Below, in pieces: positions 7,230 through 23,546 of a stretch of DNA of 64,000 nt. Numbering within the stretch: the stretch's first letter is position 1; the number at the start of each line of letters is the position of its first letter. The stretch is from positions 1 to 64,000 of IMG/VR virus record IMGVR_UViG_3300030002_000007. One strand, given 5' to 3'. The notes below the pieces were generated by a model. The model worked only from the letters and a program-made list of their open reading frames with translations, was not told where the DNA came from and searched no databases. A program made the translations under genes and the position numbers. Origin of the DNA: a virus.

Positions 7230-9316
7230 CGCATACTCCTTCCGGCAAAAGCGGGCATCGGCATTTTTGGTCTTAGGGTGTCATCTACGAGCACAGCATT
7301 TTTGAGTCTCTCCATTATTTTTGGCTCGTGCACAAGGACCTGAAGAACCAGAGCCCTAAAGATATCATCGGTAAAGCCCTCGCCCTTGCCCGGACATTGA
7401 GTGGGCCCAAGCTCTCGCACCGTCAGCATCTGCAAGACCAAATGTTGGATAGGCTTGCCATTCAACAACCTGAAGTCAATGACTGAGCCATCAAGCACTG
7501 CCTCGAACTGTTCCTTGCTGATACGAGGGAAGTGCATGTTCATGCTTTCCATCATAGCGACAAGAACGTCGAAGTGTTTGCGTCTCGGAGAGAACTGCTT
7601 GGTCAGACATCTAGGCTTGCCATCTACTAGCTTGCCCATATCTTCCATAGCACGGTGCAGAATATCCAATGACTGCCATTGGTCTGCAAGAAGACATACT
7701 GCGTGGAGATCCTTGCAAACAGGGAGGATCACCTGCTGGTACATCTTGTTGAAGTCGATCTTCCGGCCTTCGTGAGGCATGCACTCCAGTACCGTTGACA
7801 CTTCGGTCTGGTGAGTATCGAAGTTGTAGTGCGCAGCTGTGAGGCAGAACGAGTTGTTCACCGAGCCTGCGTCTATCGTTACTACTGAGGGGAACGGACA
7901 GGCACGAAGCTTCTGCACCTTAGCGTAGAGCATGCCCGGTTGGTCGTAGCAGTACGTCATCTCGTGCGTAGGTATCTGATCGAACAACTCGAACTTGACC
8001 GTTGATCGTCCGATGAACGCAGAGTGCACCCTAGGTGGATTGGCCCCGAAGTCGCGCTCTGCCTTTTCCGGATTGGTCGCGTAGGCTAGAGCGATCAAAG
8101 GTGTATCTCTGTGAAGCGTTGGGTTGACCTTCCATGTCGGCAACTGAATACCGAGGATGTACTTCTCGCCTTCAGGCGTCTTGGCATCGCCCAATCGACG
8201 CATGACCTTATCGCGGATGCTGATCGGAGAGGACACACCTAGCATCAAGGCGGGAGGCGCATTGATCCCTTCCTTCAGCAGATCGATGTTAATCGACTGC
8301 ACCGTAGCAAGGCTGTTGGTCAAGGACTTGTGCGCTTCATCCGCATTGGCTCGTGACGACTGCTCGTCTTCCTCTTCGTTACCCTTCGGTAAGGGAAACA
8401 AACCCAACTCGTCGATCACCGCAAAGATTCGTGAGTCGCCGCGAAGGATCGGGCCATTCGGATGTGTCGGGTAGAACTTCAAGTTCTTGTGAAAGTACTT
8501 GATGAACAGATCCTTCTTCCGGAAAAGTTCTACGCCATACTTCTCACCGTAGTGCGTCAGGAGTTCATGGTAGTTCTTGAACCAGTCGCTCTCGTCGATG
8601 ATGTTCATGTAAGGCGTCCACAGCAACGCCTCTGCCTTACTGAACGTCAGGGACACGAACGTGCCAGTGAGCTCCGTGGACTTCTGCATCGAATTCGGAG
8701 CCAAGCTTGCAAGCTTTGGGAACTTCAAGTAGCGATGGGTGAGGTAGGAGCAGTACGAGGCAGCACTTGAGGACTTTCCGGAACGCTGACCTAGGCAATT
8801 CACCAGCTCCTGATAGTTGTGCAGGTAGTGATTCGTAATCAGGTCATGCTTGGTGCGTTTGCACTTCGGGCACTTGCCGTTCTCGAGAACTTGCATGTGC
8901 TCAGTGATGCCTATCGAGGGCATTGCCTTATCGACGTTCTCGACAATGTAGCCTAGGTCGAACCACCGCTTGTCTGAGCAGCACGGACAGACTTCACCCA
9001 TGAGCATCAGGCCCGTCCACATCTGAATGACCCACGGAGGGTTGGCATCTTTGCCGATGATGTTGTACGCGTAGTCGTAGTAGTTCTTCGCCGATGCAAG
9101 GTCGCGGTCGTCGATCTTGAGGTCGCGGATCATCCCAGTGTCAGGGTCTTCCGCGTCATCCATCAAAGCGACAATGTCGAAGTCATCGACATACTTCGGA
9201 GCGTCTTCGTACTCTACCTCAACCTCGGAGCCAAAGGCAGCTAGCTCGGGGAAGAAATGCGCTTCCATCTCCGCCCTTGAAGGCTTTGCCTTCTTCTTAC
9301 CCTTCAACTGGGCCAT
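7226..9316 (-). CDS. terL: Terminase large subunit
   Basis: 696 aa. Motor ATPase and headful or site-cutting nuclease of DNA packaging. The Walker A motif is GQRSGKSS (residues about 176-183), Walker B is FAVIDELGLF near residue 300, and the nuclease domain begins with VVTIDAGSVNNSF near residue 490. A zinc-finger-like insertion precedes the ATPase (Cys110, 112 and 113, then Cys149 and Cys152), a feature of some large-phage terminases. GGAGG lies 8 nt before the ATG. It overlaps the upstream gene of unknown function, which occupies the position where a small terminase subunit would be expected. Confidence 0.9.
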   Translation of the reverse strand: MAQLKGKKKAKPSRAEMEAHFFPELAAFGSEVEVEYEDAPKYVDDFDIVALMDDAEDPDTGMIRDLKIDDRDLASAKNYYDYAYNIIGKDANPPWVIQMWTGLMLMGEVCPCCSDKRWFDLGYIVENVDKAMPSIGITEHMQVLENGKCPKCKRTKHDLITNHYLHNYQELVNCLGQRSGKSSSAASYCSYLTHRYLKFPKLASLAPNSMQKSTELTGTFVSLTFSKAEALLWTPYMNIIDESDWFKNYHELLTHYGEKYGVELFRKKDLFIKYFHKNLKFYPTHPNGPILRGDSRIFAVIDELGLFPLPKGNEEEDEQSSRANADEAHKSLTNSLATVQSINIDLLKEGINAPPALMLGVSSPISIRDKVMRRLGDAKTPEGEKYILGIQLPTWKVNPTLHRDTPLIALAYATNPEKAERDFGANPPRVHSAFIGRSTVKFELFDQIPTHEMTYCYDQPGMLYAKVQKLRACPFPSVVTIDAGSVNNSFCLTAAHYNFDTHQTEVSTVLECMPHEGRKIDFNKMYQQVILPVCKDLHAVCLLADQWQSLDILHRAMEDMGKLVDGKPRCLTKQFSPRRKHFDVLVAMMESMNMHFPRISKEQFEAVLDGSVIDFRLLNGKPIQHLVLQMLTVRELGPTQCPGKGEGFTDDIFRALVLQVLVHEPKIMERLKNAVLVDDTLRPKMPMPAFAGRSMR

Positions 9317-14433: not shown

Positions 14434-14892
14434 TTAGAAATCCCCGAATGCCGTCTGGTAGCAAACAACGCCAAGAGACCGCCACATCGAGACAACACGG
14501 TTGCGATCCTCGAATACCAAGAAGACATCTTTCGGTAAAATGCCCTCCAGCTCAAGGAGGTACGGCTTGAGTATGTCGTCGTGCATGTGATCGCCTGTGA
14601 TCGCATCCGGGCGCATGAGCAACTGCGCAGAGATGATCGAAGGTGATACGTACTTCTTCAATTGCTGCAAGGTGAGCGCTCGCGCCATCTCCGGCCGGCC
14701 GGTCACGAAATAGAAGCGGTAATCAGAATCACTCAGGAACTTGCGATAGATCTCGACACCTTGCGGTATCGGCGTGTCCAAGTGATGATTGTCGTTCCAG
14801 CCCTTCAAGTCATTCGACAAGAAGAACGGGAGTCTTTCTTCTGAGCAAATGCAGCAGCCATCAATGTCTGCAACGATAACGTTCTTTGTCAC
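14434..14892 (-). CDS. HAD-superfamily phosphatase
   Basis: 152 aa. HAD motif I is VADIDGC (Asp9 nucleophile, Asp11 acid/base), motif II FVTGRPE, and motif IV FEDRNRVVSMWRSLG. The layout resembles the 3'-phosphatase domain of T4 polynucleotide kinase and related phage enzymes, but no kinase domain is attached. Substrate may be a nucleotide, nucleic-acid end or sugar phosphate. The start is GTG at 14892 overlapping the upstream TGA. It lies just downstream of the 7-deazaguanine genes and may be cotranscribed with them. Confidence 0.8.
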   Translation of the reverse strand: MTKNVIVADIDGCCICSEERLPFFLSNDLKGWNDNHHLDTPIPQGVEIYRKFLSDSDYRFYFVTGRPEMARALTLQQLKKYVSPSIISAQLLMRPDAITGDHMHDDILKPYLLELEGILPKDVFLVFEDRNRVVSMWRSLGVVCYQTAFGDF

Positions 14893-15113
14893 GTGTCCAC
14901 CTCGTCCATTTCAGTTTCCATGCAGTAATCGTCAACGCGACGAATACTCCCATCTGCTTCCACTACACCAACTGCGATCAGCCGAGCCATACCGTACCTA
15001 GGCTCTGTTGGAAGGATGACTTCAAACCCCTTTCCCAGTTGGTCAGGAACCAAAATGGAACCTACATGAACAACACGAACGTCTACGTTTGAGGAAAGGG
15101 ACTTGACCATCAC
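14889..15113 (-). CDS. Hypothetical protein, 73-74 aa
   Basis: Small, mostly beta-type sequence (VRVVHVGSILVP, GFEVILPTEPRYG, IAVGVVEADGSI) with an acidic end. Start may be GTG at 15113 or ATG at 15110. Both overlap the folE stop. Function unknown. Overlapping junctions on both sides place it firmly in the folE transcription unit. Confidence 0.5.
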   Translation of the reverse strand: MMVKSLSSNVDVRVVHVGSILVPDQLGKGFEVILPTEPRYGMARLIAVGVVEADGSIRRVDDYCMETEMDEVDT

Positions 15114-15877
15114 CTTGAAAGCTCCACGAGTTGGAAGAATTCAGCACGAGCCATAGCATTATTGCGCATGGCACCCCGCGTCACAGAATTCACCATCAAG
15201 GAGTCTGGATCTTTGACACCTCGATGGCTGCAACACAAATGCTTGGCACGAATCAGCACAGCCAGGCCTTCAGGCTGAGTACAGTCTTCCAAGAAGTCAG
15301 CTATGCGCATCGCCCATTCTTCCTGTATTTGAGGACGGGAAGAAATGTGATCGATTGACCTATGAAATTTGGACAGTCCGATCAGTGCATCTTTTGCGAT
15401 AACACCAACCCATGCGTGCCCGGTGATAGGAACCATGTGATGCGCACAGACACTGCGTATCGTGATGGGCCCGACTACGTACATCTCGTCGATCTGTGTA
15501 ACGTTGGGGAACTCGGTGATCGCGGGGGGCGGGAAATAACGACCCCGATACAATTCCGTAATCATCATCTTTGCCCAACGATTTGCGGTGTCTTTTGAGT
15601 TGTGGTCGTTCTCAGTGTCGATCAGCAAAGCGGCCAACACCGCTTGGAACTTGTCGGCCACTTCTTTCTGCAGGTCGACCAAAGCTCCTTCAGGTATGGC
15701 CTCATAAACTGTGTCTGTACCAAGGGCTGGTAAGCCAAGCTTCTTAATCTCCAGCCACAGGTACTCGCTGCAAGTAAGTGGCGGAACGTAGGGCCCGCTG
15801 TCTATGGCAACAGTAGCCATTACACTGTCGACGGTATTAGCATTGGCAATCTTTGTCAGGGCTTCAAGAGCATCCAT
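15110..15877 (-). CDS. folE: GTP cyclohydrolase I
   Basis: 255 aa. Converts GTP to 7,8-dihydroneopterin triphosphate, the first step of folate and of 7-deazaguanine synthesis. Zinc ligands are seen in SVCAHHMVP (Cys144, His146 or 147) and HLCCSHRGV (Cys215/216 with His218). The substrate loop GLSKFHRSIDHISSRPQIQE is conserved. Full FolE length. In this context the product feeds QueD, QueE and QueC, encoded upstream in the same leftward cluster. The ATG is at 15877, 13 bp after the queE stop. Confidence 0.93.
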   Translation of the reverse strand: MDALEALTKIANANTVDSVMATVAIDSGPYVPPLTCSEYLWLEIKKLGLPALGTDTVYEAIPEGALVDLQKEVADKFQAVLAALLIDTENDHNSKDTANRWAKMMITELYRGRYFPPPAITEFPNVTQIDEMYVVGPITIRSVCAHHMVPITGHAWVGVIAKDALIGLSKFHRSIDHISSRPQIQEEWAMRIADFLEDCTQPEGLAVLIRAKHLCCSHRGVKDPDSLMVNSVTRGAMRNNAMARAEFFQLVELSR

Positions 15878-15890
15878 TGAGTACTTGTCC

Positions 15891-16721
15891 TTATGCGAGA
15901 TTTACAAAGAGGTGTGTCTGGAGTGACAGCTTCAAGCCATCGTGCTGCAGCACGTACTGCGCTGCGTATTCGTAATTCTTCTTCGTCGCTTCATGATCGA
16001 CGAGCGTCGCATCCCACACGCTGGCCACTTCGCCTTCAGGCGCTCGGAGGTAACGGGCCATCGGCGATACGTAGACCGGGATCATAGAATTCGCCATGAG
16101 GTCGAATGCCCAATCCGGAAGCTCGTGATGTGGGCTGTCCTCGTCGGCGTCGATCACGAACTTCAGGAAGCCATTCATCTCGATCATGTTGAGTACGTCG
16201 AAAGGAATCTTCATGCACTCTTTGGTCTTGTAGTTGGCTTTGGGTGACACGCCGAAGCACACCTTGCCGAATATCTCTTCGGGCAACTGGCGAAGCTGTT
16301 GCGAGAACTGAGGATTGGTACCGTTGCTCTCGAACTGGAAGATCTCGAACGAGGGGCCGACATGCTCTAGGCGCACTAACACATCGAGGATCAGAGGCTG
16401 GAGAGTTGGCTCCCCGCCAGTGATAACGAGGATCACACTCTTGCGATTACCGCGCAAGGTAGTCAACAGGTTTGCAAGCTCTGAGGGTGTGATCTTGGTG
16501 GCGTTCTCCATCTTGAAGTTCGTATCGCAGAACTGACAGAAGTTTGTCTTGTCACCGAAGTTGCACCCAGCCAAACGAACGAACACCGCAGGGTGTCCCG
16601 CGTACGGGCCTTCGCCTTGGATCGTTAACCATGCACCACTAACGTAAAGGTGTGTGGCGTCTTTGAACTCATTTCGAGTCACTGAGCGATCAGTGTTGTG
16701 GGTGACGATAGGTATTACCAT
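15891..16721 (-). CDS. queE: 7-carboxy-7-deazaguanine synthase (radical SAM)
   Basis: 276 aa from the ATG at 16721 (GAGGCAACATT upstream). QueE rearranges 6-carboxytetrahydropterin to 7-carboxy-7-deazaguanine. Seen: TIQGEGPYAGHPAVFVRLAG, the cluster-binding cysteines Cys53, Cys62 and Cys65 in the spacing C-x8-C-x2-C rather than the classic C-x3-C-x2-C, FCDTNF, and the SAM-binding TGGEP. Widened first spacings are known in some QueE subtypes, but this exact spacing is worth noting. A truncated second copy of the gene's 5' end lies directly upstream. Confidence 0.9.
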   Translation of the reverse strand: MVIPIVTHNTDRSVTRNEFKDATHLYVSGAWLTIQGEGPYAGHPAVFVRLAGCNFGDKTNFCQFCDTNFKMENATKITPSELANLLTTLRGNRKSVILVITGGEPTLQPLILDVLVRLEHVGPSFEIFQFESNGTNPQFSQQLRQLPEEIFGKVCFGVSPKANYKTKECMKIPFDVLNMIEMNGFLKFVIDADEDSPHHELPDWAFDLMANSMIPVYVSPMARYLRAPEGEVASVWDATLVDHEATKKNYEYAAQYVLQHDGLKLSLQTHLFVNLA

Positions 16722-16858
16722 AATGTTGCCTCTTTCCCTCGTAAGAAATCGGACTCCCATATTGTCAGGAAGGTCGAAGAAACAAACAAATGCTTCTCGT
16801 CCTTGAAGTCCTGACGCAGAGCCACGTGGTCTGCATTATGAATCTTGATCGGTTGCAT
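16715..16858 (-). pseudogene. Truncated duplicate of the queE 5' end
   Basis: A 47-codon frame whose product parallels the QueE N-terminus: it reads 'PIKIHNADHVALRQDFKDEK' then HLFVSSTFLTIW where QueE reads 'PIVTHNTDRSVTRNEFKDAT' then HLYVSGAWLTIQ. The similarity stops where QueE continues with GEGPYAG, and the frame then runs across the queE ribosome binding site to end at 16715. It begins inside the 3' end of the preceding gene. It lacks all catalytic residues. Best explained as a remnant of a tandem duplication or of allele replacement. Translation as a leader peptide is possible. Confidence 0.7.
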
Positions 16859-17318
16859 AGACTGACGCCTTTCCATTTCCGTACACCCGATCGTGAACCT
16901 CTTGAGGCGTGAGGGCCAAGTACCGAGTGAACCGCTTGTTTTCAATAGTTGACACATCACCAGTTCGATAGAAGGCTTCGAGCTGATCACTGTCAGGGAA
17001 TTTGTACGACGGGCCATACACCTTGATCTTGTTGGGTGCGACCTTGCGAGGGAACGTTGTCTTCACAAGCATGCCCGAGGGCTGAACGGCGTACCCAAGC
17101 ATTGGAATCCCTGCTGACTGGAGGAACGCCAAGTTCGCAATCACCAAAACGTTCTTGTGACCCTTCCTATTTACAGGATTGGATAACGATGTGACCCCGA
17201 AAACAAGGAGTGCATCAATCACTTTTGCGTACGCATCGACGGTGGGATTGAAGAACGGAATACCGTAGATGTTCTCATGCTCTACTGAAAAGTATTTCTT
17301 GACTGGCGTCTTCTTCAC
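16836..17318 (-). CDS. Hypothetical protein in the 7-deazaguanine cluster
   Basis: 160 aa, not recognised. Mixed alpha/beta, with segments VIDALLVFGVTSLSN, NVLVIANLAFLQSAGIPMLG and KVYGPSYKFPDSDQLEAFY. Starts with GTG at 17318 overlapping the dpdA TGA (GTGA), so translation is coupled to dpdA. The coupling suggests a role with DpdA, for example as partner or in a later step on the modified base. This is inference from position only. Confidence 0.6.
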   Translation of the reverse strand: MKKTPVKKYFSVEHENIYGIPFFNPTVDAYAKVIDALLVFGVTSLSNPVNRKGHKNVLVIANLAFLQSAGIPMLGYAVQPSGMLVKTTFPRKVAPNKIKVYGPSYKFPDSDQLEAFYRTGDVSTIENKRFTRYLALTPQEVHDRVYGNGKASVYATDQDS

Positions 17319-18745
17319 TTCGCTCCCTTTGCCTTTCCTGCAATGCCATGAAACTCTTCGTAGCGTTCGATGGCTTTGGTTGTTATTGCGCCTGCCTTCA
17401 AATGGCGATCTGCGACCGTGGCAACTTTGAACAGGCCACTTGGAGCAGACGACTTGCGAAGGAAGCCTTCCAGCACTTCACGATGCTTTGCCCATGCGGG
17501 GTGGAAGCCATTACCCATGTCCATCGTGAAACGATACAGCGCCCGGCACATGTCGGTCAGTCCGGAGGGCGCGGTGATGTTCAAGAGTTCAGACATCTTG
17601 ATCTGACCCTTCAGCATCGCCACCGTAGCTTCGTTTACCACAGCATACATCTGGAACATGGTGTGCATACCGTGCAACGCATTCCCCATCGCCGCCAGCT
17701 TGAAGGCTAACGGGTTCCCGGCTACGTAGCAGATCGGGCAATTGCAAGGCAGCGCAAAGCTGAACGTCTGATTCGGAATTGCAAAGTTCGCGATCTTCGA
17801 TTCCATCGTGTGCCGGATACCCAAGCTGCTGTGCGAGATCGCAGCCTGTGCATACGTTGACGAATCCGAACTGATGAATGGCGCCATACCAAGTGCAGTA
17901 AGGATGATGTAGATCGAGATCATGAATGGGTTGGTGGTTCCCAAGACGTGATACCTTTCGTACTCACCCTTCGTCAAATCTAGGACTGCCGACAAATTCA
18001 CAACTGCCATGAGCTGTGAAGTGAATGCGGTGTCGTAGTTGGCCTGACCGATACCGCCCAACGCTAACCCTACCCCGGCCTTGTGCTTCATGATGTACTC
18101 GGTGAACCTCAACCGATTCGCCAACGTGAGGCCGTGACTCACATCATAGATCGCGGCTTCACTGTTCAGGCTCTTCAGATGACCAGCAATGTACTTGTCG
18201 TTCAAAGCTGTCACTCGGGCCATCCTCATAAACCACTCCGTGTCTTGCAAGTGGCGAGAAAGCGGAATGTCCAAGCCGATGCCGTAGTCAACGTGGCGGT
18301 GATAATGATTGACCAGCTTGTCGGGTTCAATGAACGTCTCAACGCCCTTCGACAACTGGAAGCCACCTGAGTCAGAAAAGATCTTCACCAAGCCGTTACG
18401 CTTGTGGTACGCATCCGGATGCTCGGGCAGCACCATCATGTGGTTGTATCCGATCGACTTCAGCATCTCCGGGTTACTTAACGGAGACAAAGGGAAGCAC
18501 ACATCGAACGCTTCGGACGCAATGCCTGCTGACGAAACGGAACCCATGCCGTAATACACAGTGCGATCGGGTAGGTACATCGTATCCAACCCGAGCTTGC
18601 GCTCTACGGTGTAGGGAGGCTTTTTTGGCTTACCAAACTTCGCCGCGAAGTAACTGTTCCGCGAGATCGAACAGACTGAGGCCGGCATGATCTCGACCTT
18701 AGCTGTACGACGGATTTCAACCGATGGCTTCTTTTGGGTATTCAT
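17315..18745 (-). CDS. dpdA: DpdA-like DNA 7-deazaguanine transglycosylase
   Basis: 476 aa from the ATG at 18745. Related to tRNA-guanine transglycosylase. DpdA proteins exchange guanine in DNA for a 7-deazaguanine base. Seen: SDSGGFQLS (residues about 124-132, with Asp125), a second acidic strand SSDSSTY (Asp294, candidate nucleophile), GLALGG with HVLGT, and the zinc site CNCPIC (Cys334, Cys336, Cys339) with His358 or His361 nearby. The companion queC, queD, queE and folE supply preQ0. Target sequence preference cannot be read from the sequence. Confidence 0.87.
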   Translation of the reverse strand: MNTQKKPSVEIRRTAKVEIMPASVCSISRNSYFAAKFGKPKKPPYTVERKLGLDTMYLPDRTVYYGMGSVSSAGIASEAFDVCFPLSPLSNPEMLKSIGYNHMMVLPEHPDAYHKRNGLVKIFSDSGGFQLSKGVETFIEPDKLVNHYHRHVDYGIGLDIPLSRHLQDTEWFMRMARVTALNDKYIAGHLKSLNSEAAIYDVSHGLTLANRLRFTEYIMKHKAGVGLALGGIGQANYDTAFTSQLMAVVNLSAVLDLTKGEYERYHVLGTTNPFMISIYIILTALGMAPFISSDSSTYAQAAISHSSLGIRHTMESKIANFAIPNQTFSFALPCNCPICYVAGNPLAFKLAAMGNALHGMHTMFQMYAVVNEATVAMLKGQIKMSELLNITAPSGLTDMCRALYRFTMDMGNGFHPAWAKHREVLEGFLRKSSAPSGLFKVATVADRHLKAGAITTKAIERYEEFHGIAGKAKGAK

Positions 18746-19472
18746 AATCAATCATCTCGAGGGCCGGAAGGATTTCCTGTTTTCTGTGATCGTCGTAGTA
18801 CGTGCCATAGAGCATCTCGTAAATGATGCGCTGGTTCTCTTCGACGTTCAAGGGATAGATGTTGTACTTCTCAGTCAGTCCCAACTGCGTGAAAATTCCC
18901 CAACGCCTGAAACAGACGACACACGCCCCACATTTGCCAGCCTCGCCAGAAAGACACGAAGAGGAATCAATGATCTCCTGAGCAGGGAGGCCGGCATCCA
19001 ACGCCCACTTGGTAGCTGTGAACTTGTTGAAGCCCGCATCAGCAAGAGGAAAGCGCACTTGGATCTTCGTCTTGAACGGAGACAGTACATAATTCAAGGT
19101 GCGATTTGCATGCTCGAGGAACTCGTAGTTCTTGTCGGTGCCATGCGCGACTGTCTCACCGAGAAGGGCACCCATCCAGATTTCGTCAGGCAGGTCAGCG
19201 CAAGCAACCAGAGTAGCAAGCACCAAGTTGCGACCGGGGATGTAAATGTTACCCGACGTGCTGCCTTCCTTCGCTGCGGCAGCCTTGCCACCGAGCCAAT
19301 CGAGCTTGCGACGAATCACGTAGTCGGGGAGGGCGGCCATTTCCTTCTCAAGGTACTCTTGGCCTATATCGTAGAACACGCAAACAACTTCGGCTTCAGG
19401 GAAATAGAACTCGGCGTACTTCTTCATAATGAGCGAATCAAGTCCGCCAGAAAACAGGATGACGATTTTCAT
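18717..19472 (-). CDS. queC: 7-cyano-7-deazaguanine synthase
   Basis: 251 aa. ATP-dependent conversion of 7-carboxy-7-deazaguanine plus ammonia to preQ0. PP-loop SGGLDS at residues 8-13 and the zinc motif with Cys173, Cys181, Cys184 and Cys187 (CLSGEAGKCGACVVC) are complete. NIYIPGRN matches the conserved substrate-binding loop. AAGGA lies 6 nt before the ATG. It overlaps the dpdA start by 29 bp, so the two are coupled. Confidence 0.92.
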   Translation of the reverse strand: MKIVILFSGGLDSLIMKKYAEFYFPEAEVVCVFYDIGQEYLEKEMAALPDYVIRRKLDWLGGKAAAAKEGSTSGNIYIPGRNLVLATLVACADLPDEIWMGALLGETVAHGTDKNYEFLEHANRTLNYVLSPFKTKIQVRFPLADAGFNKFTATKWALDAGLPAQEIIDSSSCLSGEAGKCGACVVCFRRWGIFTQLGLTEKYNIYPLNVEENQRIIYEMLYGTYYDDHRKQEILPALEMIDYEYPKEAIG

Positions 19473-19474
19473 GA

Positions 19475-19714
19475 CTAGTCCTTCTTCATGAGATCAACGA
19501 TGGGGAGGTCAACCATAGCACGGACGACTCGGACTTCAGCACCTTCGGACACTTCAACGATCCGGGCAACAACGCCGGAACGAGTCGTGATAACAGCGCC
19601 GTCAGGGCTCGCTACTGCTTCCTGAAACATCGCAGTCAGCCGACTCAGATCCTCTGCCGAGGGGTTCCAGTCAGGCCCACCCGCTTCGATATGCAAAATT
19701 TGACGTAAGCTCAT
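19475..19714 (-). CDS. Hypothetical protein, 79 aa
   Basis: Start chosen at the ATG at 19714 because AAGGAG precedes it by 7 nt. Short protein with a helical N-terminal half (SAEDLSRLTAMFQEAVA) and a small beta part (AVITTRSGVVARIVEV, EVRVVRAMV). Lies 2 bp upstream of queC in the same operon. Function unknown. Confidence 0.55.
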   Translation of the reverse strand: MSLRQILHIEAGGPDWNPSAEDLSRLTAMFQEAVASPDGAVITTRSGVVARIVEVSEGAEVRVVRAMVDLPIVDLMKKD

Positions 19715-19718
19715 TGCT

Positions 19719-20225
19719 CTACTCCTTCTGTGAATTGGTTGAAGTACCGTCGCGGAACAATCCGTGGTCACCTTCGACCACTCGATCCATTTCTTCGTAA
19801 GGGAACACTACCCAGTTGGGAGTGATCAACGCAGTCGACTGTGCAATGTGCGCGAAGTCTCCACCGTCGTACCGAGAGTCGATCACCGCTGGATAGATTT
19901 CGTAATTGAGAGTATCCGGTGCCCACTTCATGTGCGCGTGAATGCACTGAACGGTTCTGCCTGTAGCTATCACGTCTTCGAGATAGACGTAAGTAGCATC
20001 GCGCTCCACAGGCTCCGCGTAGTTCCGCGAGGGATGTAACGACTGACCCGACGCCGGGTAGTAAGTGCCAACAGGCATTGCCAACTTGTAGCCAACCAGC
20101 TGGGCCAAGGTCATGCCGCCGCGTACCACAGCAAACAAGTAGGGGTTGGTGATCCGCGCCTTGATGTCTTCTGCAATGGCATAGGCAATCTTCTGCAGCT
20201 CAGCATACGTCATCTGGTGTTTCAT
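19719..20225 (-). CDS. Phosphoribosyltransferase-family protein
   Basis: 168 aa. The PRPP-binding signature VYLEDVIATGRT (residues 80-91) and the upstream loop AVVRGGMTLAQLVG mark a type I phosphoribosyltransferase of the hypoxanthine/xanthine type. Such enzymes join a nucleobase to PRPP or run the reverse reaction. Start at 20225 with AGGAG before it. In a 7-deazaguanine cluster it could salvage the displaced guanine or act on a deazapurine base. That is inference, and an ordinary purine-salvage role is the simpler alternative. Confidence 0.78.
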   Translation of the reverse strand: MKHQMTYAELQKIAYAIAEDIKARITNPYLFAVVRGGMTLAQLVGYKLAMPVGTYYPASGQSLHPSRNYAEPVERDATYVYLEDVIATGRTVQCIHAHMKWAPDTLNYEIYPAVIDSRYDGGDFAHIAQSTALITPNWVVFPYEEMDRVVEGDHGLFRDGTSTNSQKE

Positions 20226-20227
20226 GT

Positions 20228-21394
20228 TTACTCCTTTACTGGTGAGGGCCAAGGTTTACGATTTCTGAATTTCTGATCTTCGAGTGCCCAATCGATACCA
20301 ATGTGATCTTGGGCGAATGGGTGCCACGCTCTCCGACCTGTCCACGAGGTATCTGGATCACTCCAGAACTCATTCAACGGACTCAAGCCAAGAGGGAGTA
20401 GGAAGAACGCTGTGGCATACAAGCTGCCGGTGCTGATGTAAGAATCTGCGAGGGCTTCATCCACGGACACTAGTCCCGGTGTCAAGAAGCCTTCTGAGAA
20501 CATGTGAGGCAGCATCAACTTCAGCGAGGCAGTCAGCGCACATCGAACTGCTGCGGGCCTTATGCCTGTATTTACAATGTCACCATGGAGGGCGCCGTAG
20601 GCAAGTGCGTAGAAGGCACCGAGCCGATAAACGATTGAACGTCCGATTGCCGGGAAGCTTCCCGTCTCTGAGAACTGGCGCTCTTGGATTTCGAGGAAGC
20701 GCAAATAGCGAGCAACAAACACATCCCCCGTAGCTAAGGCGAAGGCACCCGGTATGGCTTTCATCAAATCTTGGATCGCCGGATGTACCACGATACTGTT
20801 GTAGTAGTTGGAGCTGTACAGTGGGCCATCACCATAGATACCATCTCCAACATAGAAGCCATTGAAGGTGTGGATGGCTCGACGCACTGCACTCGAATAT
20901 TGACTGGCGTACGTAATGTCCGTCTCTTGCACGTACAGGAATGCGGTGACCAATGCCTTCTGCAGAATCCAGTTGTTGTCGTAGACGGGCATCATGTTGA
21001 CAGACTGCAGCCAATGAACGAACGAGTGCCGTCCGTAAGAGTCCATCGCCTTCCAAAGCTTGGGACTCCGAGTGAACGCCTGACACAAGTATCCAGCCTC
21101 AATCACGCTCTGCTGCTCCAGCGCAGGTCCTCCGCTGTTGAACAGCGCGCGGAGGCATTCAACAGCCGAGTCATAGAGCTGATGACGCCTACGCAATTCG
21201 GTCTCAGTACACACTGGCATCGACAAGTCCGCTTGGAACCAAGGAGCAAGACCGCAGGTGGTTCTCGCAATAGCCTCGAGCTCAGAGCTTACAGGATTGC
21301 CAGTATGCAGCTCCGGCATCTTCGCACCAGAGTAGACTGGGGTTGCCAGCTGGACAGCAAAATTCACCCACAGCTTACGTGCTTCATTTCGCAT
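20228..21394 (-). CDS. DUF2264-family protein
   Basis: 388 aa from the ATG at 21394. Family signatures recognised by eye: YGDGPLYSSNYYNSIVVHP, then FPAIGRSIVYRLGAFYALA, RCALTASLKLMLP and SYISTGSLYATAFFLLPLG, followed by FWSDPDTSWTGRRAW. DUF2264 proteins of bacteria are uncharacterised, with an alpha/alpha-toroid look shared with glycoside hydrolases and lyases. No signal peptide is present, so it should act in the cytoplasm. It overlaps the glycosyltransferase gene by 11 bp, which implies a linked function, perhaps in handling a sugar on the modified base or on a host polymer. The link is inferred. Confidence 0.8.
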   Translation of the reverse strand: MRNEARKLWVNFAVQLATPVYSGAKMPELHTGNPVSSELEAIARTTCGLAPWFQADLSMPVCTETELRRRHQLYDSAVECLRALFNSGGPALEQQSVIEAGYLCQAFTRSPKLWKAMDSYGRHSFVHWLQSVNMMPVYDNNWILQKALVTAFLYVQETDITYASQYSSAVRRAIHTFNGFYVGDGIYGDGPLYSSNYYNSIVVHPAIQDLMKAIPGAFALATGDVFVARYLRFLEIQERQFSETGSFPAIGRSIVYRLGAFYALAYGALHGDIVNTGIRPAAVRCALTASLKLMLPHMFSEGFLTPGLVSVDEALADSYISTGSLYATAFFLLPLGLSPLNEFWSDPDTSWTGRRAWHPFAQDHIGIDWALEDQKFRNRKPWPSPVKE

Positions 21395-22175
21395 AGTGAT
21401 CACCTGTCCATGAACCGCCAATGAACGCATGCTCCATACCCATGTGGATTGCTTCACATCCAGTCACTAGCGTGATCTCGATCTTGTTCTCGTTGAGCAG
21501 CTCTTCAAGGCGAACATCGTAACCGCGAACACCCTTCACTTTGAACTTCTCGAGTATGTCGTCCCATAGCTCTGGAGCCTTCCACAACGCCTTGGGCAAA
21601 CAATAGAGCTGTGTGATCGCCGGGTACTTGTGGTGGTAGGCCACTTGCTCGAAGCGATGGTGCTTTGCCTTGTCCATTTCCATGCCGGGCGTGCGAAGGT
21701 ATGCGAACATCGAAGGAAAGATCTCGGTCGTGTAGTCAGCGTAACCCCGACTATCGTTTGCATCTACCACGCCCAAAGTCGCAACGCGATGAGTCTTAGC
21801 ACGATGGACGCATTGCTTCAGGCGATACCACGCATGTCTAGGAACAAGAAGGTCGTCATCAAGGTTGATGAAGAAGTCAAACTCAATCAGCGGATCGACG
21901 TTGCGCTTAGTGTGGGCAACCGACATATCAGCTGGAACGGCCTTGACGATCAGTGCGTTACCTGTGAACTCAGCGAGCAGCTTAAGGTACGGGAACGGAG
22001 AGCATTCAGGCACTTCCCCGTAATGCTGGATGTTGAAGATAGCACCACTGACTGAAGTCATGACGGCTGCGAGTGTCATCGGCAGCAGGTGGTAACGCGA
22101 CGGGCTTGTTGTTGTGAGGAACAGAAAACCATCTAGTGATGTTTGACTAGAGGTCGTTGCTCTGGGGTGTGACAT
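21384..22175 (-). CDS. Glycosyltransferase-like protein (GT-A type)
   Basis: 263 aa. The N-terminus reads like a GT-A fold (FLFLTTTSPSRYHLLPMTLA), and FFINLDDDLLVP (Asp106-108) provides the metal- and nucleotide-sugar-binding D-x-D. Downstream segments AYLRTPGMEMDK and a final DVRLEELLNENKIEITLV fit the acceptor half. Known GTs in phages glucosylate hydroxymethylcytosine or modify capsid or host surface. Here the neighbours are 7-deazaguanine genes, so transfer to a 7-deazaguanine derivative is an attractive, untested reading. Start at 22175 with GGGAG, overlapping the kinase gene. Confidence 0.75.
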   Translation of the reverse strand: MSHPRATTSSQTSLDGFLFLTTTSPSRYHLLPMTLAAVMTSVSGAIFNIQHYGEVPECSPFPYLKLLAEFTGNALIVKAVPADMSVAHTKRNVDPLIEFDFFINLDDDLLVPRHAWYRLKQCVHRAKTHRVATLGVVDANDSRGYADYTTEIFPSMFAYLRTPGMEMDKAKHHRFEQVAYHHKYPAITQLYCLPKALWKAPELWDDILEKFKVKGVRGYDVRLEELLNENKIEITLVTGCEAIHMGMEHAFIGGSWTGDHYAK

Positions 22176-22630
22176 GAATACTCCCTGACAAATGAAAGGA
22201 CTGACTTGCGTAGTACGATAACAGCACTAGGAATATCCTCTACAGACGAGACCTCTAGGAAGGTCGTTGCTTCGACTGGAGAGGGAGGAACAAACAAGAC
22301 TGCAGTGTCAGGATAAGGGCACGGCTGACCGGTGTTCATGTAGACGAGAATGTCCGGCTGCACTATGTGGCGATACTCGACGCACAGGCAGGCGAAGTCC
22401 AAGATGGCCACCGCATTCAGTGAGCCACAGTTGAGCCTCGCCAGTCTTGCCATGCGTACAGCTTGATGCCAACGACCTGTATCGGAGAAGTCCCAGTCGT
22501 CGTACATCGCGTGGATGTCATCTTCATTCAGCCAAGTGGCATTCACGGTGTCGATCAACGCCGCGTGCAGGGCCTTAGCTAGTAGGGACTTGCCCGAATT
22601 AGGCAGTCCCATAACAAGGACCTTAATCAC
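22133..22630 (-). CDS. P-loop kinase, adenylylsulfate-kinase-like
   Basis: 165 aa from the GTG at 22630, 3 bp after the queD stop with AGGAA upstream. Walker A is GLPNSGKS (residues 8-15), then TWLNEDDIHAMYDDWDFS and RWHQAVRMARLARLN, which parallel the acceptor-binding and helical lid parts of APS kinases (D-G-D-x-x-R region). APS kinase relatives in phages phosphorylate diverse small molecules or modified bases. The substrate is unknown. The C-terminal 20 residues lie over the glycosyltransferase start. Confidence 0.72.
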   Translation of the reverse strand: MIKVLVMGLPNSGKSLLAKALHAALIDTVNATWLNEDDIHAMYDDWDFSDTGRWHQAVRMARLARLNCGSLNAVAILDFACLCVEYRHIVQPDILVYMNTGQPCPYPDTAVLFVPPSPVEATTFLEVSSVEDIPSAVIVLRKSVLSFVREYSCHTPEQRPLVKHH

Positions 22631-22632
22631 GA

Positions 22633-23235
22633 CTATTCCTGAACGTAAAGCGAATGGCTCTTCGGAGTCTCCCACCAGTCTACAGACGCCACGCGACACA
22701 GGCGCTGCATCTTCCACGCGACAATATCGAACATCCACTTACTGAGGTTCTCACTCGTCGGCACGAAGTCGACGATGAAGAAGCTTTCCAGATACTCGCG
22801 CATATGGATCGGAAGCTCCGGAGGAAGCATGATGCGACGACCCACGACCATCTGCGAATACATGCCGCCGCTATTCGGAGAGTTGGCAACGTCCGTGCGT
22901 TCGATCTTCCACGGATACAGAATTGCGTCCGGGTGGCCGGGCATATTGAGCAACGACTGCATGAGAGGATCATTAACGTCGATGATGAAGTGGTGATCGA
23001 TGATCTGGTTCAGGAACGTCTTGAGCCATTCGAGGTGACGGAAATCCGTGACCATGCCATTGCGGAGTTCGATGCCACCGAGCAGCGAAGTGAGCGTAAC
23101 GTCTACCTTGCCTTCGTGGCCGTGCAGATGTCGGCAAGCACACAGAAGATCGCTGGCGAACTCAGAGTCAAGAGTCTGACTCCACACGCGGTGACCATAA
23201 CAGAATTCGACGGCCTTCGTTATAAAGTGGGGCAT
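22633..23235 (-). CDS. queD: 6-carboxytetrahydropterin synthase
   Basis: 200 aa from the ATG at 23235 (AAAGGAA upstream). QueD makes 6-carboxy-5,6,7,8-tetrahydropterin from the FolE product. Zinc and catalytic residues: His15 in FCYGHRV, and CRHLHGHEGK with Cys34, His38 and His40, plus VTDFRHLEWLK and the substrate-related NDHH-type segment IIDHHF. Longer than typical QueD (about 120-150 aa) because of a C-terminal extension containing ESFFIVDFVPTSENLS, which holds the conserved P-T-x-E-N element. Confidence 0.9.
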   Translation of the reverse strand: MPHFITKAVEFCYGHRVWSQTLDSEFASDLLCACRHLHGHEGKVDVTLTSLLGGIELRNGMVTDFRHLEWLKTFLNQIIDHHFIIDVNDPLMQSLLNMPGHPDAILYPWKIERTDVANSPNSGGMYSQMVVGRRIMLPPELPIHMREYLESFFIVDFVPTSENLSKWMFDIVAWKMQRLCRVASVDWWETPKSHSLYVQE

Positions 23236-23237
23236 TG

Positions 23238-23546
23238 CTATTCCTTTCGGGGTGTGATGATTGAAATATCGACCTTGCGGGTATCGGATAGCTTGAAGCT
23301 CATTACTTTGGCACAAGCTACGTTGGAGATCTCGGTAACATCGCCACCGAGCAGTTTGGGGAGGACGGTGATTATGAGCTTCATGTGGTTGCTGTCTTCA
23401 GTCCTAGGCACAGCAACCAGATCAAGATCGTTGTCGCTATAGCCGTTGTTCAACACCCCACCAGCCAAGGCTAGGTAGTAGCCTGCCGCCATGACCTCAG
23501 GTTGCATAACGCGAATTAACCGAAGGGCTTCATCAGTCGTCCACAT
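23238..23546 (-). CDS. Nucleotidyltransferase-fold protein
   Basis: 102 aa from the ATG at 23546, which overlaps the upstream stop (TGATG). AGGVLNN followed by YSDNDLDLVAVP gives the G-G/S...D-x-D pattern of minimal nucleotidyltransferases (Gly29-Gly30, Asp40, Asp42), with a later strand KVDISII that could supply the third carboxylate. Such enzymes transfer NMP to proteins, RNA or small molecules. It lies 2 bp upstream of queD, so it is in the same transcription unit. Substrate unknown. Confidence 0.68.
   Translation of the reverse strand: MWTTDEALRLIRVMQPEVMAAGYYLALAGGVLNNGYSDNDLDLVAVPRTEDSNHMKLIITVLPKLLGGDVTEISNVACAKVMSFKLSDTRKVDISIITPRKE

Follow-up and report, generated by a model that had tools for sequence, protein, structure and literature searches.

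The window, the whole stretch analysed here, comprises bases 1-64,000 of an 81,478-bp IMG/VR virus record (IMGVR_UViG_3300030002_000007). Its minus strand carries a series of phage replication and modification genes, and the named relatives of the phage are large phages, namely Achromobacter phage Motura and the Burkholderia phages BcepSauron and BcepSaruman. Our subject is a pair of overlapping genes on that strand. One codes for a 388-aa DUF2264 (or 'GH154') protein, a predicted cytoplasmic uronate 4,5-dehydratase (20228..21394, with its ATG at 21394); the other, upstream of it, codes for a 263-aa predicted GT-A / GT2-like glycosyltransferase (GT) with an NLDDDL motif (21384..22175). The pair is surrounded by FolE, QueD, QueE, QueC and DpdA-like genes, so that the location within a deazaguanine cluster given by an earlier note on this DNA is borne out. 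We put forward, tentatively, that the two genes could well form a two-enzyme glucuronate cassette of the deazaguanine pathway of a large phage.

The earlier note had recognised the DUF2264 protein from the letters alone and had named a profile search and a structure prediction as checks; both were run and both agree with it. The match to PF10022 is strongly significant (3.5e-58; 197.8 bits for a cut-off of 25) and is the only one in the 81,478-bp record. The note also held DUF2264 to be uncharacterised, which is outdated, since structures have been solved and a beta-D-glucuronate dehydratase activity assigned. According to the extracts of PMC12269599 (J Biol Chem 2025) used here, DUF2264 is GH154, and the enzymes BcGDH (from Bacteroides caccae) and BT_3677 act on a terminal glucuronate, which they convert by dehydration into its 4,5-unsaturated form, and a GH88 enzyme subsequently removes this; the whole family is proposed for reclassification as beta-D-glucuronate dehydratases. 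The same extracts describe BcGDH as devoid of hydrolase activity and the family as devoid of a glycosidase-like site, and mention earlier reports of GH154 members as beta-glucuronidase and beta-galactosidase. PMC11739564 was discarded as a source on DUF2264 because it concerns another family.

The closest structures to the window protein in the PDB are 9o4u (8.9e-47), 9nwf and 8oi4. The first two are titled beta-D-glucuronate dehydratase, one of them being an inactive mutant with substrate, and 8oi4 is called a beta-galactosidase. An AlphaFold2 model built with 20 bacterial relatives in the alignment (pLDDT 80.1, pTM 0.84) predicts a helical barrel fold, and Foldseek ranked 8oi4, 9o4u and 9nwf first (TM about 0.8, 30% identity). 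Ten active-site residues mutagenised in BcGDH were then mapped through the PDB alignment, the numbering offset being fixed by R285A, at which the two chains differ; after mapping, all ten land on the correct letters. Nine of them are identical in the window protein, the exception being F181, replaced by Q145. The proposed catalytic residues Y229, R285 and Y289 (base, arginine and acid, respectively) correspond to Y198, R252 and Y256, and are invariant in 83 other rows as well as in all three phage proteins considered below; N176, also one of the ten, varies across the family anyway. Given the chemistry of the family, the predicted fold and the catalytic residues, we infer that the window protein is a glucuronate dehydratase.

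The GT is harder to place. Searched with the window protein itself, Pfam, PHROG and NCBIfam gave no match, and the PDB nothing beyond chance-level rows. A profile search of the PDB with the phage GTs gave no match, and the single-sequence model (pLDDT 30) is unusable for fold. The protein is conserved at about 40% identity in two other phages (L104 and L106, see below), and the NLDDDL motif, an acidic motif of the DxD type that we take to be GT-A-like, is invariant in the three proteins. The L104 homologue just passes the GT2 profile PF00535 (23.7 versus 23.3 bits, a margin of 0.4 bits); that of L106 does not match it. The GT-A call made earlier thus stands through a homologue, without profile support for the window protein, and a GT2/GT-A glycosyltransferase is likely but not proven. 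A pattern scan on the DDD motif of the GT returned 11 stretches, none related. As to the arrangement described earlier as 'fused by overlap', the 11-bp overlap between the end of the GT gene, with its stop, and the start of the DUF2264 gene (21384..21394) is real, and a gene fusion is rejected, the two genes lying in separate frames with a stop. Overlaps are ordinary in this cluster (10 of 16 neighbouring gene pairs, taking longest-ORF starts), and for that reason we do not use the overlap itself as evidence of linkage.

What makes the pair more than a chance juxtaposition is its recurrence, again overlapping, in two other phages. An IMG/VR scan with the DUF2264 alignment gave two DUF2264 loci, L104 (in a 192,170-bp record) and L105, and a scan with two GTs gave L106 (in a 222,078-bp record). 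The DUF2264 proteins of L104 and L106 match PF10022 at 1.5e-65 and 2.3e-49. In L104, GT and DUF2264 are 38% and 35% identical to their window counterparts and overlap by 14 bp; in L106 the overlap is 8 bp. The L104 pair lies between QueD and the DpdA-like gene, as in the window, the order being peptidase, QueD, a 128-aa protein, GT, DUF2264, PAPS-reductase-like, PIG-L-like, a 146-aa protein, GT-B-like, DpdA-like, a 145-aa protein, FolE, PNKP-like and QueE (for PAPS-reductase, PIG-L and group-1 GT, the profile scores stay under the cut-offs). The L106 pair is placed between an acidic-protein gene and the RecA side: GT, DUF2264, a UDP-glucose dehydrogenase-like gene directly after it, then RecA. 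The product of that third gene (PF03721 7.4e-10; phrog_9148 1.4e-17; PDB UDP-glucose 6-dehydrogenase 4.1e-7) would make UDP-glucuronate. DpdA-like and QueD proteins are found in the three records, and two of the three phages have the pair within their deazaguanine block. The window DpdA-like protein is closer to that of Motura (6.4e-66) than to those of the other two phages (3.3e-26 for L104, 1.8e-27 for L110), and hence the pair occurs with two types of DpdA. The view that DUF2264 and GT form a pair, which the earlier note had drawn from a single locus, is therefore strengthened.

In a quick tree of 36 chosen rows, the phage DUF2264 proteins make up one side of a branch with a support of 97, a value to which a long-branch warning applies; all our trees were quick trees, and record L006 was left out of this one. 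Single-protein scans for close relatives of the window DUF2264, GT and DpdA-like proteins found none, and a fold search of BFVD returned no match at an E-value of 0.001 or better. Since a first IMG/VR alignment scan also found none and a better alignment then found L104, such pattern-scan negatives are weak and more relatives may exist.

Bacterial DUF2264 loci served as a control for the pairing. Of 414 relatives from a bacterial genome scan, 80 loci were kept; the search covered all six frames of each, retrieved flanks (up to 6 kb) included. A profile made from the three phage GTs found this GT family in none of them, so that the pair did not turn out to be widespread in cell-surface sugar operons, an outcome that the earlier note had said would speak against a link to DNA modification. 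A GH88/105-like gene is present in at least 36 of the 80 (tblastn with four queries, several flanks being shortened), and among three annotated plasmid loci two carry GH88, one of them together with KduI; a fourth plasmid locus bears no annotation. By the same four queries, GH88/105-like genes were found in none of five loci (the window, L088, L104, L106 and L107), and the GH88 profile PF07470 matches nothing in the three phage records (window, L104, L106), which may be fragments. The DUF2264 hits in a phage collection, three among 50,697 records (L003, L005 and L006; MT836317.1, MT839554.1 and AGRM01000005.1), were set aside as bacterial by their neighbours or label: L003 and L005 are both flanked by genes of carbohydrate degradation and cluster with Bacteroides rows, and L006 is labelled as a Salmonella genome contig and has GH88 and PL8 neighbours. 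All three were kept among the 83 comparison rows used for the active-site counts.

These loci bear on a first alternative, in which the pair alters host surface glycans (e.g. a capsule or O-antigen precursor) against superinfection and its Que neighbourhood is coincidental. Bacterial DUF2264 genes do sit in carbohydrate operons, and the L106 pair does lie outside the Que/DpdA block. Yet the empty bacterial flanks, the position within the deazaguanine block in two phages and the DpdA-like and QueD proteins of all three records go the other way, as does the architecture of the phage DUF2264 proteins: those of the window and L106 begin near the domain and lack the N-terminal extension of most bacterial rows. 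We consider a role in surface glycans unlikely.

The cluster around the pair reads FolE, QueE, a 160-aa protein, the DpdA-like transglycosylase, QueC, a 98-aa protein, a phosphoribosyltransferase-like protein, the DUF2264/GT pair, an APS-kinase-like protein and QueD, all on the minus strand; it brings together the FolE, QueD, QueE, QueC and DpdA-like genes by which phage 7-deazaguanine DNA modification is recognised. FolE, a GTP cyclohydrolase I (15110..15877; PF01227 1.5e-42), is followed by the QueE-like radical SAM protein (15891..16760; phrog_2076 1.9e-33). The 160-aa protein of unknown function (16836..17318), which adjoins the DpdA-like gene, is related to a Motura protein at the same place (3.5e-9). 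The DpdA-like tRNA-guanine-transglycosylase homologue (17315..18751) is similar to a gene that carries the annotation tRNA guanine transglycosylase in Motura (31% over 97%, 3e-56). Next come the QueC-like 7-cyano-7-deazaguanine synthase (18717..19472; phrog_1550 2.9e-20, and PF06508 above its cut-off) and the phosphoribosyltransferase-like protein (19719..20252; PF00156 4.9e-5, slightly under its cut-off). Beyond the pair lie the APS-kinase-like P-loop kinase (22133..22738 with the longest-ORF start; PF01583 8.2e-5, phrog_10255 2.6e-9), which is related to two kinases upstream of the L106 pair (5.6e-19 and 4.9e-14), and the 6-carboxytetrahydropterin synthase-like QueD (22633..23316; PF01242 2e-21, phrog_2389 2.2e-30).

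With a transglycosylase homologue in the cluster, a second alternative arises, namely that the pair acts on tRNA or nucleotides, the DpdA-like protein being a tRNA transglycosylase and the GT glycosylating a queuosine-like tRNA base. Glycosylation of Q derivatives is known in tRNA, where eukaryotic queuosine mannosyl- and galactosyltransferases glycosylate Q. Moreover, the DpdA-like proteins match TGT-type models only, and weakly (TIGR00432 at 3.8e-4 for the window protein, well below cut-off; phrog_887 at 5.1e-4 for that of L110). However, phage clusters of DpdA with FolE, QueD, QueE and QueC are established DNA-modification systems in the extracts of PMC6884629 used here, and we hold an action on tRNA or nucleotides to be improbable.

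Returning to the glucuronate cassette, its working would be as follows. The FolE, QueD, QueE, QueC and DpdA-like proteins, a set with a known role in the synthesis of a 7-deazaguanine base and its insertion into phage DNA, would provide the substrate. The GT-A/GT2-like enzyme would attach to it a uronic acid; glucuronate is the most likely one, with UDP-glucuronate as a donor made by the host or, in L106, by the phage's own dehydrogenase. As acceptor we envisage something made by the deazaguanine pathway, which would probably be the DNA-borne base or a sugar attached to it; DNA as the substrate of the pair is what we infer. DUF2264 would then dehydrate the terminal uronate between C4 and C5, and the resulting 4,5-unsaturated uronic acid would stay as the final cap, presumably as a shield against host nucleases, no GH88 enzyme having been found in the three phage records to take it off. 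More doubtful than the cassette itself, and no better than a fair conjecture, is its full chemical outcome: a glycosylated deazaguanine whose glucuronate has been dehydrated to the 4,5-unsaturated acid, with a catabolic dehydratase recruited to DNA decoration.

The earlier note had seen in these genes a 'build-and-trim' pair of sugar enzymes. The idea of two genes that work together and belong with DNA modification is supported; that of trimming is not, since the family dehydrates. In its characterised chemistry, removal of the unsaturated uronate needs a GH88/GH105 enzyme, and because the three phage records hold no GH88-family match, 'build and cap' fits better. Trimming can still be argued as a third alternative, in which DUF2264 hydrolyses, or primes the removal of, sugar from phage or host molecules, perhaps with a host GH88. 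The title of 8oi4 and the glycosidase activities formerly reported for GH154 members would agree with this, as would the bacterial homologues, which are catabolic and accompanied by GH88 and KduI. Such a role would nevertheless leave the overlapping GT unexplained and is hard to reconcile with an enzyme family in which hydrolase activity (BcGDH) and a glycosidase-like site are lacking; we give it little credence.

Several points weigh against the cassette. For glycosyl transfer the acceptor must offer a hydroxyl or an amine; preQ0 has no obvious hydroxyl, and among the window genes none was identified that would make such a group from it. The acceptor is the weakest point of the model. The GT2 assignment is marginal and comes through one homologue, that of L104. 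The UDP-glucose dehydrogenase profile PF03721 found nothing in two of the records, those of the window and of L104, which may be fragments; the host could supply the UDP-glucuronate donor. In L106 some 90 kb separate the pair from the DpdA gene; the argument from position is weaker for it, and the case for two genes that move as a unit gains. Only three phages are concerned, and as their terminases are related (60% and 43%/34%) they are distant kin and not independent cases.

The remaining two objections come from DUF2264 itself. At the position of F181, whose alanine mutant is inactive in BcGDH (extracts of PMC12269599), the three phage proteins have Q, M and L, against F in 82 of the 83 other rows, and they sit on long branches in the 36-row tree. 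The loss of F181 may argue that the sugar or the acceptor differs from that of BcGDH. Pushed further, both observations lead to a fourth alternative, in which DUF2264 acts on another substrate altogether and the uronate link is misleading. Against it stand the invariant base, acid and arginine proposed for catalysis and the UDP-glucose dehydrogenase-like gene next to the pair in L106, and a wholly different substrate appears rather unlikely to us.

Compared with known systems, the window protein shares with BcGDH (9o4u, 9nwf) the sequence family, the modelled fold, the Tyr/Arg/Tyr set and nine of the ten tested residues, and differs from it by the Q at F181, by the lack of an N-terminal extension and of any GH88 partner found, and by its association with a glycosyltransferase instead of a lyase/hydrolase set. 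The cluster resembles the DpdA-type 7-deazaguanine systems of phage DNA (extracts of PMC6884629) in grouping FolE, QueD, QueE, QueC and a DpdA-like gene, whereas the sugar-adding and sugar-dehydrating pair sets it apart, no glycosylated deazaguanine being described in those extracts. A precedent for glucuronate on phage DNA is phage SP-15, whose DNA bears a glucuronate moiety and whose modification cluster has a UDP-glucose dehydrogenase (extracts of PMC5977210). Here a UDP-glucose dehydrogenase-like gene adjoins the L106 pair, and PF03721 found none in the window and L104 records. In SP-15 a thymine derivative is modified through phosphoglucuronate, whereas a deazaguanine and a dehydratase are predicted here. 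Motura (L004) has related DpdA-like, QueE, FolE and neighbouring genes; it differs by an asparagine-synthetase-like gene and by the absence of the GT/DUF2264 pair from the 31-kb stretch examined. Our searches of open PMC papers gave no description of a GT-DUF2264 pair, nor of phage DNA with a glycosylated deazaguanine. If the cassette is real, it would join two phage DNA-modification chemistries known separately, deazaguanine insertion and sugar decoration, and a family of polysaccharide-degrading enzymes would gain a biosynthetic role. It would also predict a product measurable by mass, a uronate on deazaguanine minus one water, and the GT-DUF2264 pair could serve to flag phages whose DNA bases are unknown.

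Some further observations concern the genes around these loci. The window's 98-aa protein (19475-19771, minus strand; phrog_16240 1.2e-9), encoded between the phosphoribosyltransferase-like gene and QueC, shows similarity over 45 aa (40%, E 1e-10) to a portion of this phage's portal, and both have a relative in a 214-codon reading frame of Motura. A protein with a PNKP-type phosphatase domain (14434-14892, minus strand) is kept in the same cluster of L104 (1.8e-36). L105, the other locus from the alignment scan, looks like a giant-virus contig and has only a 171-aa DUF2264 piece at 8049-8564 (plus strand), adjoining resolvase- and TnpB-like genes and other possible glycosyltransferases named by eye.

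In both other phages a GT-B-like gene immediately precedes the DpdA-like gene (L104:9743-12025 and L110:383-1498, both on the plus strand; 62% identical) and a PIG-L-like deacetylase gene is nearby (42% identical); neither was found in the window's record. The two genes hint at an amino sugar that may be added and deacetylated. No PF06508 match for QueC was found in the records of L104 and L106, though QueD and QueE are present; the L104 cluster includes the PAPS-reductase-like protein. Upstream of the L106 pair and of the DNA polymerase, L106:46-3469 (plus strand) holds a carbamoyltransferase C-terminal gene, a sulfotransferase gene and two APS-kinase-like genes, which suggests further modification chemistry in that phage.
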